Below are positions 1 to 7,835 of a DNA stretch of 7,835 nt, piece after piece. The notes beneath the pieces are model-generated. The model saw only the letters and a list, made by a program, of their open reading frames with translations, was not told the DNA's origin and did not search any database. Source of the stretch: an uncultured Pseudomonas sp. Lineage in GTDB: Bacteria; Pseudomonadota; Gammaproteobacteria; Pseudomonadales; Pseudomonadaceae. The DNA is taken from NCBI GenBank assembly GCA_946886875.1, contig CAMPJN010000169.1:1-7835 (forward strand). Reading direction: 5' to 3'. Position 1 is the stretch's first letter; the number at the start of each line of letters is the position of its first letter. Made by a program: the position numbers and the translations under genes.

Positions 1-292
1 CTACATGGGCGAACTGCTGAGTTACTCCTGGCCGGGCAATGTCCGCGAACTGCGGGCGGCGGCGGAGCGCTTCGTACTCGGTCTGCCGCCATTGGGTGAG
101 ATCAGGAAGGACCGCATGCTGCTCAAGGATCAATTGCGGCTGGTCGAGAGAATTCTGATCCAGGATTGCCTGAAGCGTCACGATAAATGCATCGATTCGA
201 TGATCGACGAACTGGGTATTCCTAAAAGAACGCTGTATCACCGGATGAAAATGTTGAATATCCAGGATGGCAATGGAACCACTTTTCGCTAG
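1..292 (+). CDS. hrpS: HrpS, sigma-54 enhancer-binding activator (C-terminal part, 5' end outside window)
   Basis: HrpS, usually acting with HrpR, activates sigma-54-dependent transcription of hrpL, the sigma-factor gene for the type III regulon. Only the last 96 or so codons are present. The frame is open to the left edge, so the Met at 5 is internal and not the start. Visible features are the end of the AAA+ domain with the conserved motif WPGNVREL near fragment residues 10-17, then a linker, then a C-terminal Fis-type helix-turn-helix (about residues 62-90, containing ELGIPKRTLYHRMK). HrpR/HrpS proteins lack an N-terminal receiver domain, which cannot be checked here. The stop codon TAG is at 290-292. 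The promoter of the next gene overlaps this 3' end. HrpR would be the main alternative, but in this cluster type the copy next to hrpA is HrpS. Confidence 0.93.
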   Translation, partial: YMGELLSYSWPGNVRELRAAAERFVLGLPPLGEIRKDRMLLKDQLRLVERILIQDCLKRHDKCIDSMIDELGIPKRTLYHRMKMLNIQDGNGTTFR

Positions 293-355: not shown

Positions 356-574
356 ATGGCAGGTAACTCTATTGCTAGCGGTCTGAACAACCTTTTCGTC
401 AACGAGGGCAACCAGACTGCTCTGAACCAGGGGCAAAACCTCATGGATATGGGTAACTTCACTCGTGAGTCGCAGGACGCTCAGAACAAGAACGCGATGG
501 CTTCCGTCGCAACGGAGAACGCCAAGACCGCGCAGAACGCGCAGATCAACGGCGCTAAAGGCGTGCAGTACTGA
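356..574 (+). CDS. hrpA: HrpA, Hrp pilus subunit
   Basis: This is the major subunit of the extracellular Hrp pilus, the conduit for type III effectors across the plant cell wall. The protein has 72 residues, small and Asn/Gln/Ala-rich, with no Cys or Trp. Its tail (TAQNAQINGAKGVQY) resembles the conserved HrpA C-terminus, which ends NAKGISY in P. syringae as I recall it. P. syringae HrpA is longer (about 110 residues), so this is a short version; HrpA sequences are known to be very variable. I chose ATG 356 because GGAGAAG at 345-351 is correctly spaced. The upstream in-frame ATG at 320 would add a basic, non-pilin extension and lies in the leader hairpin. It directly follows hrpS and a perfect hrp box, the invariant hrpA position, and is followed by a strong hairpin. 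Confidence 0.88.
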   Translation: MAGNSIASGLNNLFVNEGNQTALNQGQNLMDMGNFTRESQDAQNKNAMASVATENAKTAQNAQINGAKGVQY

Positions 575-836: not shown

Positions 837-864
837 GGAACTTGGTGGAAGGCTTTTCCACTCA
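837..864 (+). promoter_or_regulatory. hrp box 2 (HrpL promoter of second pilin-like gene and hrpB-hrpE)
   Basis: GGAACT at 837-842, a 15 nt spacer, then CCACTCA at 858-864. It lies 40 nt upstream of the ATG at 905, a normal HrpL promoter distance. In P. syringae the hrpA promoter serves the whole hrpA-hrpZ-hrpB-hrcJ-hrpD-hrpE unit, so a separate box here is notable. An inverted repeat, GTGGAA (845-850) and TTCCAC (856-861), overlaps the -10 half. Confidence 0.87.
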
Positions 865-904
865 ATAATCGGCCGTCGTCATTCACATTTTTTCGGAGGT
901 TTAC

Positions 905-1123
905 ATGAGCATTAGCAGGCCGGCTTTCGATGTGTTGGATGTGATCAACAAAGAAGCCGAATTACAACTCAGCCATACGAAGAAGAGTATGCAGACCTCT
1001 GCCGAAGCCTTCCGGTTGATGCTGCGTGCGAGCGAGAAGAATGCGGCGGGTTCGATCATTCAGGACCAGCAGATCAAGTTCCAGACCAAGGTCATCGAAG
1101 GGACGCGCGATATCCAGTTCTGA
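905..1123 (+). CDS. Small HrpA-like type III protein (putative second pilin or needle-type subunit)
   Basis: I do not recognise a named family with certainty. The gene has a strong ribosome binding site (GGAGG at 895-899) and its own hrp box, so it is very likely real and part of the type III regulon. The product has 72 residues, exactly the length of HrpA upstream, and no Cys or Trp. Aligned end to end without gaps, the two share 13 identities, mostly in the C-terminal half: KNA at 45-47, S50, Q60, I64, G66 and Q71, plus the aromatic last residue (Y/F) and V/I at 70. It is likely helical throughout, like needle, pilin and rod proteins. The inferred role is a secreted structural subunit: a minor pilin, a pilus-base or needle adaptor, or a diverged pilin paralogue. 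HrpF-like or chaperone-like functions are alternatives. It is followed by hrpB, the inner rod gene. Confidence 0.8.
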   Translation: MSISRPAFDVLDVINKEAELQLSHTKKSMQTSAEAFRLMLRASEKNAAGSIIQDQQIKFQTKVIEGTRDIQF

Positions 1124-1175: not shown

Positions 1176-1544
1176 ATGAAGATCGAAAGCACAAGCGGCG
1201 TCACGTCCGGGCGAGGGCTCGGCATTGAGACCTTGACGGAAAAACTATCCGATCCGGCCGAGTCGGACGTTTCCTGGTTCAGCGCCGCCATGCAGGAAGG
1301 TGCGAGGCAGGCGCCGATGGCGTCCGGTGGTGCGGTGCGCCCCTTGGGCGAGCTGTTCCAAAACTTACAAGACAACTCCGACAAGGTCGGCCGTGGGCTG
1401 AAAAAGGCATCTGCTTCCGCGGACCCCATGAACATCCGCAAGGCAAGCAAATCCTTGTCCGAGTTCTATCTGGAAAGCCTGTTGTCCGCCAAGCTGGTCG
1501 GCAAGGCGGCCCAGGGTTTGGAAAAGCTCACGAACCTTCAGTAG
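1176..1544 (+). CDS. hrpB: HrpB, type III inner rod protein (SctI family)
   Basis: HrpB forms the inner rod or adaptor linking the export gate and ring to the pilus, and is itself secreted. The length, 122 residues, is normal for HrpB. The C-terminal helix (about residues 94-122, YLESLLSAKLVGKAAQGLEK followed by LTNLQ) carries the SctI signature: a leucine-rich amphipathic helix with V-G-K and a terminal (L)xNLQ. The N-terminus is Ser/Gly/Thr-rich, as in secreted type III proteins. ATG 1176 is preceded by GAGGTGA at 1166-1172. It lies 11 nt ahead of hrcJ and belongs to the transcript starting at hrp box 2. The middle of the protein is poorly conserved in this family, so the identification rests on the tail and on gene order. 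Confidence 0.88.
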   Translation: MKIESTSGVTSGRGLGIETLTEKLSDPAESDVSWFSAAMQEGARQAPMASGGAVRPLGELFQNLQDNSDKVGRGLKKASASADPMNIRKASKSLSEFYLESLLSAKLVGKAAQGLEKLTNLQ

Positions 1545-3551: not shown

Positions 3552-3579
3552 GGAACGCTTTCGCCGTTTCGACCACTCA
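3552..3579 (+). promoter_or_regulatory. hrp box 3 (HrpL promoter of hrpF-hrpG-hrcC-hrpT-hrpV)
   Basis: GGAACG at 3552-3557, 15 nt spacer, CCACTCA at 3573-3579. The last base of the -35 half differs from the usual C/T. The box is 31 nt upstream of hrpF, matching the known promoter of the hrpC operon in P. syringae. No terminator separates it from hrpE, so readthrough from upstream is possible. Confidence 0.9.
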
Positions 3580-3610: not shown

Positions 3611-3832
3611 ATGTCTTTCGATAGAGTCCAACGCCGTCTCGATGCCGTTTTCCAGCGCTCGCAGAACCAGCTCGATCAGGCCGCCGTCAGGGCGGCGGAA
3701 GGCGCTTCGCTGGAGGATATCAGCGCCTTCACCGAGGCGATGATGCAGCACAGCCGGGCCAACTGGGCCTCGAGCCGCATCGGTACGATGCAACACAGCC
3801 TGTCCAAGGCGATTCTCAATGAAATCCACTGA
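3611..3832 (+). CDS. hrpF: HrpF, small type III accessory protein
   Basis: The 73-residue helical protein is the first gene of the hrpC-type operon, the position of P. syringae HrpF (about 74 residues), a small protein required for secretion. It contains an N-terminal amphipathic segment (VQRRLDAVFQRSQNQLDQAA) and a conserved-looking tail (MQHSLSKAILNEIH). Its size and helical character recall needle and pilin proteins, as with the two 72-residue proteins upstream. ATG 3611 is preferred over ATG 3596 because GGAGG at 3598-3602 is the obvious ribosome binding site and would lie inside a longer product. The 3' end overlaps hrpG by 14 nt. Confidence 0.9.
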   Translation: MSFDRVQRRLDAVFQRSQNQLDQAAVRAAEGASLEDISAFTEAMMQHSRANWASSRIGTMQHSLSKAILNEIH

Positions 3833-6957: not shown

Positions 6958-6985
6958 GGAACTTTGTCGCGCTGCCTTCCACTCA
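6958..6985 (+). promoter_or_regulatory. hrp box 4 (HrpL promoter of effector chaperone gene)
   Basis: GGAACT at 6958-6963, a 15 nt spacer, then CCACTCA at 6979-6985. It lies 90 nt upstream of ATG 7076. Its position rules out a start codon in the open frame that extends further upstream, and it puts the chaperone gene, and probably the gene after it, in the HrpL regulon. Confidence 0.9.
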
Positions 6986-7075: not shown

Positions 7076-7465
7076 ATGGATATGCAACGGATCGTTGATG
7101 GTTTCCTGGCCCGCCTGGGCGAGCGTCTCGGCACGCCGCTCACGCTGCAGCGCGGCGTATGCGCGCTGTATAACGACCGCGACCAACAACTCGCTGTGAT
7201 CGAGATCCCCCAGCCGGGGAGTTCCGTCATGTTCTATTGCCGGCTCGGCCAGGTGGCGCGCGAAGTCGACAGTTACCAGCGGCTGCTGGCGAGCAATTTC
7301 GATATGAGCTCGATGCGTGGCTGTTGGTTCGCCTTGAATCGCGACGCGCTATGTCTGTGCACCCAGCGCGATATCGCCGAGCTCGATGAGGAACGCTTCT
7401 GCGACCTGGCGATGGGTTTCATCGCCCAGGCGGAGACGATAAGGAACACCGTGAAAGTCGCGTAG
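7076..7465 (+). CDS. DspF/AvrF-family type III effector chaperone
   Basis: The protein has 129 residues, a small cytoplasmic class I chaperone (CesT fold) that would keep an effector soluble and deliver it to the export apparatus. The sequence closely follows the DspF/AvrF (ShcE) pattern: GVCALYN near residues 27-33, then AVIEIPQPGSSVMFYCRL, then the signature NFDMSSMRGCWFAL, then an acidic helix (IAELDEERFCDLAMGFI). As I recall DspF, it has the same spacing from Met to GVCALYN, which supports ATG 7076; AAGAGAG at 7061-7067 is a weak ribosome binding site. Known DspF/AvrF proteins serve AvrE/DspE effectors and usually lie beside that gene. No AvrE-type gene is seen next to it here, so the partner is either outside the window or a different protein. 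Identification is by residue patterns from memory. Confidence 0.88.
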   Translation: MDMQRIVDGFLARLGERLGTPLTLQRGVCALYNDRDQQLAVIEIPQPGSSVMFYCRLGQVAREVDSYQRLLASNFDMSSMRGCWFALNRDALCLCTQRDIAELDEERFCDLAMGFIAQAETIRNTVKVA

Positions 7466-7621: not shown

Positions 7622-7835
7622 ATGGAGCTCAGGTTGCATATCAATGTCCGGCCCGATGCTTTTTCACCGCAAACGGATTCGCCTTCGGACCATAAAAGCA
7701 ATTCGCGCACGAATACCGGCGATGCGCTGGGCGGCAGATCCTTCGAGGAGTTCGCCGAGCAGATGGCCATGGCATTGGTTGCCGAGCTGTTGAAGGGCAA
7801 CCCCTTGTTGCAGCAATTGCTGGGGGGCGGCAATG
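7622..7835 (+). CDS. Harpin-like secreted protein, possibly HrpW type (N-terminal part, 3' end outside window)
   Basis: The first 71 residues are visible and the frame runs off the right edge. AGAGGA at 7609-7614 is well spaced for ATG 7622. The N-terminus is Ser/Thr/Asn/Asp-rich and without Cys, as in type III secreted proteins. It is followed by an amphipathic Leu-rich helix (FEEFAEQMAMALVAELLKGN) and then PLLQQLLGGGN, the start of a Gly-rich stretch. This matches the layout of harpins, and the helix resembles the EQMAQLLAELLKSLL region I recall from Erwinia HrpW. Whether a pectate-lyase-like domain follows (HrpW) or not (HrpZ/HrpN-like) cannot be seen. It is probably expressed with the upstream chaperone from hrp box 4. 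Confidence 0.72.
   Translation, partial: MELRLHINVRPDAFSPQTDSPSDHKSNSRTNTGDALGGRSFEEFAEQMAMALVAELLKGNPLLQQLLGGGN

Follow-up and report, generated by a model that had tools for sequence, protein, structure and literature searches.

A second, hrpA-like gene in an Hrp1 type III secretion cluster of the Pseudomonas indica group, a probable diverged pilin paralogue

Can an Hrp1 type III secretion cluster encode a second pilin-like protein beside HrpA, and what would such a protein do? The question is raised by a 7,835-nt stretch of DNA from an uncultured Pseudomonas sp. (hereafter the window, meaning the whole stretch analysed), in which a small gene, here called X, is located between hrpA and hrpB. 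The initial annotation, made from the letters of the window, described X as a pilin-like relative of HrpA with a promoter of its own.

Organisation of the Hrp1 cluster

The window contains an Hrp1 type III secretion cluster from the end of hrpS to the start of an open reading frame past hrpV. The gene order is hrpS-hrpA-X-hrpB/sctI-hrcJ-hrpD-hrpE-hrpF-hrpG-hrcC-hrpT-hrpV, then a gene for a CesT-type chaperone and the truncated last reading frame. The names hrpS, hrcJ, hrpD, hrcC and hrpT are given on the grounds of gene order and similarity to related loci rather than of a family match. The 3′ end of hrpS occupies positions 2-292, and a hrp box fitting the pattern GGAAC-N15/17-CCACNNA is found 5′ of hrpA, at 275-302 on the forward strand. 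The hrpA gene (356-574, forward strand), encoding the main Hrp pilin of 72 amino acids, was assigned from its position 3′ of hrpS and from a profile with 28 other Pseudomonas HrpA loci. RNA folding predicts a GC-rich hairpin directly 3′ of hrpA (forward strand, approximately 583-612), which is a possible attenuator; the segment 572-640 folds with a z-score of -4.9, equalled by none of 200 shuffles, and the hairpin is absent from the list of the terminator scan. Next 3′ of X lies hrpB, or sctI (1176-1544, forward strand), coding for the inner rod (PF17001, E=4.1e-21, and TIGR02497), followed by hrcJ (1556-2362). The genuine hrpF of the cluster (3611-3832, forward strand; PF06266, E=1.6e-24) was used as a control in the analysis of X.

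Another hrp box, at 6958, is located 3′ of hrpV and is followed by the CesT-type chaperone gene (7076-7465). The P. indica counterpart (L001, 6730-8139) of the truncated reading frame at 7622-7835 has a pectate-lyase domain, PF03211, and the truncated frame looks like the start of a HrpW-type harpin gene with the gene of its putative chaperone alongside.

Gene X and its transcription

X (905-1123, forward strand) is a real gene between hrpA and hrpB. Its product has the length of HrpA, 72 amino acids each, and a GGAGG sequence is found upstream of its ATG, so that both the equal length and the ribosome binding site first described for X were recovered. The G+C content of third codon positions is 0.73 in X and the same in hrpA. 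The widest homologue search returned 15 protein clusters including X, all of 71-72 amino acids and 61-100% identity; a narrower search returned 13. The pN/pS values of X are 0.166/0.723 between the window and P. indica, with synonymous sites near saturation, and 0.030/0.146 between P. indica and Pseudomonas sp. PIC25. X is under purifying selection. The N-terminal half of the protein is variable, while the C-terminus is conserved and ends in an aromatic residue.

A clear hrp box had been claimed for X, and it is present as GGAAC-N16-CCACTCA at 837-864 (forward strand), starting 68 nt 5′ of the ATG; the window has four hrp boxes, against a mean of 0.05 in shuffled sequences. Since the interval from X to hrpB is free of terminator-like sites in the terminator scan, and the next hrp box downstream is only at 3552, the box at 837-864 is probably the promoter of hrpB-hrcJ-hrpD-hrpE as well as of X, in an operon of presumed extent. 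The description of this promoter as belonging to X holds for the window, but not for P. indica NBRC 103045 and PIC25, in which the 107-110 nt 5′ of X contain no hrp box. HrpL control within the hrp cluster, one of the marks of a pilin gene, is thus indicated for X in the window, by a box that is not conserved in these two relatives.

Distribution of X

Of the 398 Pseudomonadaceae genomes that were sampled, two contain full-length X. Both belong to the P. indica group, and a scan of the genome contigs returned the same two loci only. The nearest named relatives by X are P. indica NBRC 103045 and PIC25, in which hrcC is 82% and hrcJ 80-81% identical to the genes of the window. PF06266, taken as a marker of Hrp1, occurs in 30 of the 398 genomes. 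The early remark that no such gene was known in the classic clusters agrees with the absence of X from all 28 Pseudomonas Hrp1 loci outside the P. indica group and from eight plasmid loci, seven of them Hrp1-like. The X profile was run on all eight of these, which were taken among 40 listed of 180 matched records; Enterobacterales were sampled via plasmids because the class-level PF06266 survey yielded one of 369 genomes. X was not found in the plasmid search, and five pattern matches in viral contigs included no relative. Partial, weak matches to the X profile (E from 1.3e-4 to 0.008) were obtained in 13 of the 398 genomes and in two of 194 in another scan, one genome (G030) appearing in both. 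They are tentatively taken as chance matches; the reading frames looked at around six of them were chosen crudely, and a Pfam scan of three short fragments returned nothing.

Where the harpin gene would lie, between hrpA and hrpB, 25 of the 28 other Pseudomonas loci carry an open reading frame of 286-382 codons; the remaining three, the Hrp1-like clusters L063-L065, have no harpin-sized gene there. In L063, hrcC is located on the opposite side of hrcJ, and L064 and L065 have a small reading frame without the terminal aromatic residue in the position of hrpA. Six Enterobacterales plasmid loci have one small gene directly 5′ of hrpB, according to gene tables that are incomplete (L082 has no listed hrpS). 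The plasmids of Enterobacter chuandaensis (L079) and Pantoea dispersa (L080) carry near-identical Hrp1 clusters in two genera, and their pilin scores only about 2-3 bits against Pseudomonas HrpA profiles. The Mitsuaria locus (L081) has a different arrangement and was left out of the HrpA comparisons.

One contig of P. indica NBRC 103045 breaks off inside a second hrpA, of which only the first 63 nt are visible; ahead of it lie hrpS, a complete hrpA and, beyond a gap of 250 nt, a hrp box (L066, G001:C20; hrpA copies at 392-610 and, start only, at 1-63, reverse strand; hrp box at 114-141). The visible 63 nt are identical to the first hrpA. Another P. indica contig begins 110 nt 5′ of X and carries X and hrpB. 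The PIC25 contig begins in the 3′ end of hrpA, with X starting 107 nt past the hrpA stop, and a complete HrpA was not found in PIC25. The likely order is hrpA1-hrpA2-X-hrpB, with the assemblies broken at the repeated hrpA, as pieced together from contigs that are not contiguous there. A hairpin between hrpA and X is also predicted in P. indica and PIC25, with modest z-scores of -1.7 and -2.5. The hrpA-X gap of the window might derive from the hrpA1-hrpA2 gap of P. indica: the spacing of the box before P. indica hrpA2 (250 nt past the hrpA stop, 78 nt before the ATG) is similar to that in the window (262 and 68 nt), but the best local DNA match is one short hairpin stretch, equalled by 1 of 300 shuffles, and the hrpA-X gap of PIC25 shows no such likeness (equalled by 66 of 300).

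Relationship of X to HrpA

The ungapped end-to-end alignment of X and HrpA of the window has exactly the 13 identities in 72 positions that were originally counted (1, 7, 17, 37, 42, 45, 46, 47, 50, 60, 64, 66 and 71), and ten of them fall in the second half, which confirms the reported clustering; other pairs of X and HrpA members share up to 21. A shuffle check gave a divided answer. At least 13 identities with HrpA were reached by 0.145% of 20,000 residue shuffles of X, in favour of the alignment, but the score of the window X on the window-type HrpA profile was equalled by 150 of 2,969 reported shuffles (3,000 made). The window pair alone is weak evidence, and relatedness is better settled by comparing families.

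A 43-row HrpA profile, built from the window, 28 other Pseudomonas loci, P. indica and 13 database relatives, scored all 14 rows of X at 5.7-20.1 bits. The score of the best row (P0006) was matched by 0 of 3,000 shuffles, that of P0009 by 1 of 3,000 and that of the window X by 5 of 2,998, and neither the maximum nor the mean observed for the X family was reached in 1,000 column permutations. Alignments of the best X rows with this profile run gap-free up to the final residue, as does that of the X profile with HrpA P0020 over positions 1-72. In hhalign, 0 of 200 permutations were as good for X against all HrpA and 1 of 200 against window-type HrpA.

In the fixed-register test the C-termini were aligned and the columns of X permuted. 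X gave z=6.06 against 15 window-type HrpAs, with 0 of 200,000 permutations as good, and z=4.37 against 25 other Pseudomonas HrpAs (of 28; L063, L064 and L065 were left out as very divergent), with 6 of 200,000 as good. In either set, no circular shift out of 70 equalled the observed value, and when the test was repeated on 16 X rows, 0 and 5 of 200,000 permutations, respectively, were as good. The other Pseudomonas HrpAs represent an independent set, since their likeness to X cannot stem from gene conversion. The positive control, window-type HrpA against other Pseudomonas HrpA, gave z=5.42 (0 of 100,000). Residues A7, E17, R37, K45, A47, Q60, I64, G66 and Q71 are each present in at least 80% of both families, and the terminal aromatic residue, noticed from the start in the window pair, is common to the two families. 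By the register test X bears a further mark of a pilin, a relationship to HrpA in sequence, chiefly in the C-terminal half.

Other comparisons gave weaker results. The hhalign probabilities of X were 4.0% with window-type HrpA, 8.3% with all HrpA, 0.5% with other Pseudomonas HrpA and 0.2% with HrpF. A search with the X profile through 5,748 frames of 39 loci had P. indica HrpA as its best non-X match, at only E=1.6. On a profile of other Pseudomonas HrpAs only, the best score of X was reached by 70 of 1,000 column permutations and the mean by 20 of 1,000; in hhalign 11 of 200 permutations were as good against this set, and the N-terminal third of X was without signal against it. Against six Enterobacterales HrpAs (of seven; L075, P. 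antarctica, was left out) the fixed-register result was marginal (z=2.29; 1,420 of 100,000), the control with window-type HrpA giving z=3.01 (223 of 100,000). In a scan of 899 reading frames with the HrpA profile, limited to 55-130 amino acids and so omitting a few true HrpA frames (L045, L053), some HrpF proteins scored 10.4 and 8.7 bits, against 8.7 for the window X. The view of X as a diverged paralogue is thus supported by the profile and register tests with their controls and less so by hhalign and the Enterobacterales comparison. By these alignments, X is very probably a diverged paralogue of hrpA.

Family libraries and predicted structure

Nothing in Pfam or NCBIfam matched X above the cut-off, the best being DUF4785 (E=0.032), and no chaperone, needle or rod model of either library matched it up to E=10, although the neighbouring hrpB matches PF17001. 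The match to an unrelated family, such as a chaperone, that would have contradicted the pilin reading did not appear in these libraries. The lack of a library match for X says little, since the HrpA of the window itself matches neither Pfam nor NCBIfam; the needle and rod models may be too distant for X, as for HrpA. Sequence searches of PDB with X gave two matches, to dynein regulatory complex protein 10 at E=0.26 and to amyloid-like protein 2 at E=0.62, and no SctF needle or SctI rod chain up to E=10.

The predicted structure of X is a single long helix over residues 5-70 (mean pLDDT 87.9), and that of HrpA a single long helix over residues 5-67 (mean pLDDT 75.0). X is thus, by prediction, small and almost wholly alpha-helical, as is characteristic of pilins; Hrp-type pilins are described as almost entirely helical by prediction in the part of PMC3973906 covered. 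The models agree with such descriptions, and helices of this kind cannot separate small helical families.

X as a putative minor pilin

The preferred reading, with a probability of about 0.55, is that X arose as a tandem paralogue of hrpA, has diverged and is retained in the P. indica group, its product being a minor pilin that assembles with HrpA. HrpL would direct transcription from the box at 837, with X at the head of X-hrpB-hrcJ-hrpD-hrpE, and the product of X would be exported early as a type III substrate, like HrpA. It would assemble via its conserved C-terminal half, the near-invariant C-terminus being the putative subunit interface, and would act as a minor pilin with HrpA, for example as a base or tip segment, which by this reasoning is the likeliest role. 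Secretion, polymerisation, a place in the pilus and the extent of the operon are what we infer for X. Over the last 20 columns, the 16 X rows have 17 that are invariant and the 15 HrpA rows have 10. Charged residues make up 0.26 of X and 0.12 of its HrpA, and large hydrophobic residues 0.31 and 0.22. This constrained C-terminus, the composition and the place with the genes of the base suggest that X has a specialised position at the base or tip and is not simply a duplicate shaft subunit.

X could instead be an alternative major pilin, used at other times or in other hosts than HrpA and never mixed with it in one pilus. It has the length and register of HrpA and, in the window, its own hrp box, and the start of a further hrpA with its own box in P. 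indica indicates that pilin duplication occurs in the group. However, the special role suggested by the constrained, more charged and more hydrophobic protein argues against this, and the sigma factor is common to both genes, with no sign of alternation, which makes such a pilin unlikely.

Somewhat less probable still is a HrpA-derived protein that acts outside the pilus, as a secreted or cytoplasmic accessory, a pilin regulator or a pilin-binding helper similar to HrpF. The latter, a small helical-looking protein of similar length encoded in the same cluster, is described, in the part of the source covered, as stabilising the pilin and as a negative regulator, one that binds HrpG (PMC6069116), and the X profile scores HrpF weakly, at up to 4.3 bits. 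Descent of X from HrpF, as a second HrpF-like protein, is nevertheless not supported. A PF06266 search of X gave no match up to E=10; hhalign of X against HrpF was at chance level (113 of 200 permutations as good); the fixed-register test was not significant (z=1.53; 6,716 of 100,000; control with window-type HrpA, z=-0.11); and the highest score of X on a 30-row HrpF profile was 5.7 bits, which 98 of 1,000 column permutations attained. A separate, genuine hrpF is moreover present at 3611-3832.

Least likely is that X, as a small helical type III protein of separate origin, owes its likeness to HrpA to convergence of short low-complexity helices. In favour of this are the low absolute profile scores, the HrpF proteins that equal the window X on the HrpA profile and the marginal Enterobacterales comparison. 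Against it are the fixed-register test, which gave strong results with each of two HrpA sets and no significant one with HrpF, the equal length, the adjacent place and the nine residues and terminal aromatic common to both families.

Comparison with known systems

X resembles HrpA, the Hrp1 pilin, in its 72 amino acids, predicted single helix, C-terminal register with terminal aromatic, lack of cysteine, hrp box and place between hrpS and hrpB. It differs in sharing only 13 of 72 residues with its neighbour, in composition, in its far more constrained C-terminus and in being a second gene beside a normal hrpA. The SctF needle and the SctI inner rod are small helical early substrates that polymerise, and X is similar to them as a small protein of predicted helical structure.

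The closest functional parallel is the rhizobial type III pilus, with which several secreted proteins, namely NopA, NopB and NopX, occur in association (PMC3973906, in the part covered). According to that source NopB resembles FlgK at its C-terminus, and the three are not described as paralogues of one another (PMC3973906), whereas X is a likely paralogue of HrpA with a putative presence in the pilus.

Hrp pili have one major pilin in the portions of the literature covered, and no second hrpA-like gene in an Hrp1 cluster appears in the titles and abstract openings that searches of the open-licence literature on Hrp pili, second pilins and P. indica returned. The name 'HrpA2' of P. syringae pv. 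phaseolicola is presumably that of an allele, not of a second gene; it denotes the pilin of that pathovar. It appears in this sense in the part of PMC6069116 covered.

Implications for the Hrp pilus

The minor-pilin reading of X may be extended, tentatively, to a heteropolymeric Hrp1 pilus in the P. indica group, in which a shaft of HrpA would be combined with X as a dedicated base or tip subunit that has a conserved interface of its own, encoded first in the operon of the basal body and made together with the base. If true, such a two-subunit pilus would be a natural system for studying the initiation of a pilus on its base or its termination at the tip, and X would allow one to ask whether pilin duplication diversifies a surface structure that is exposed to the host.
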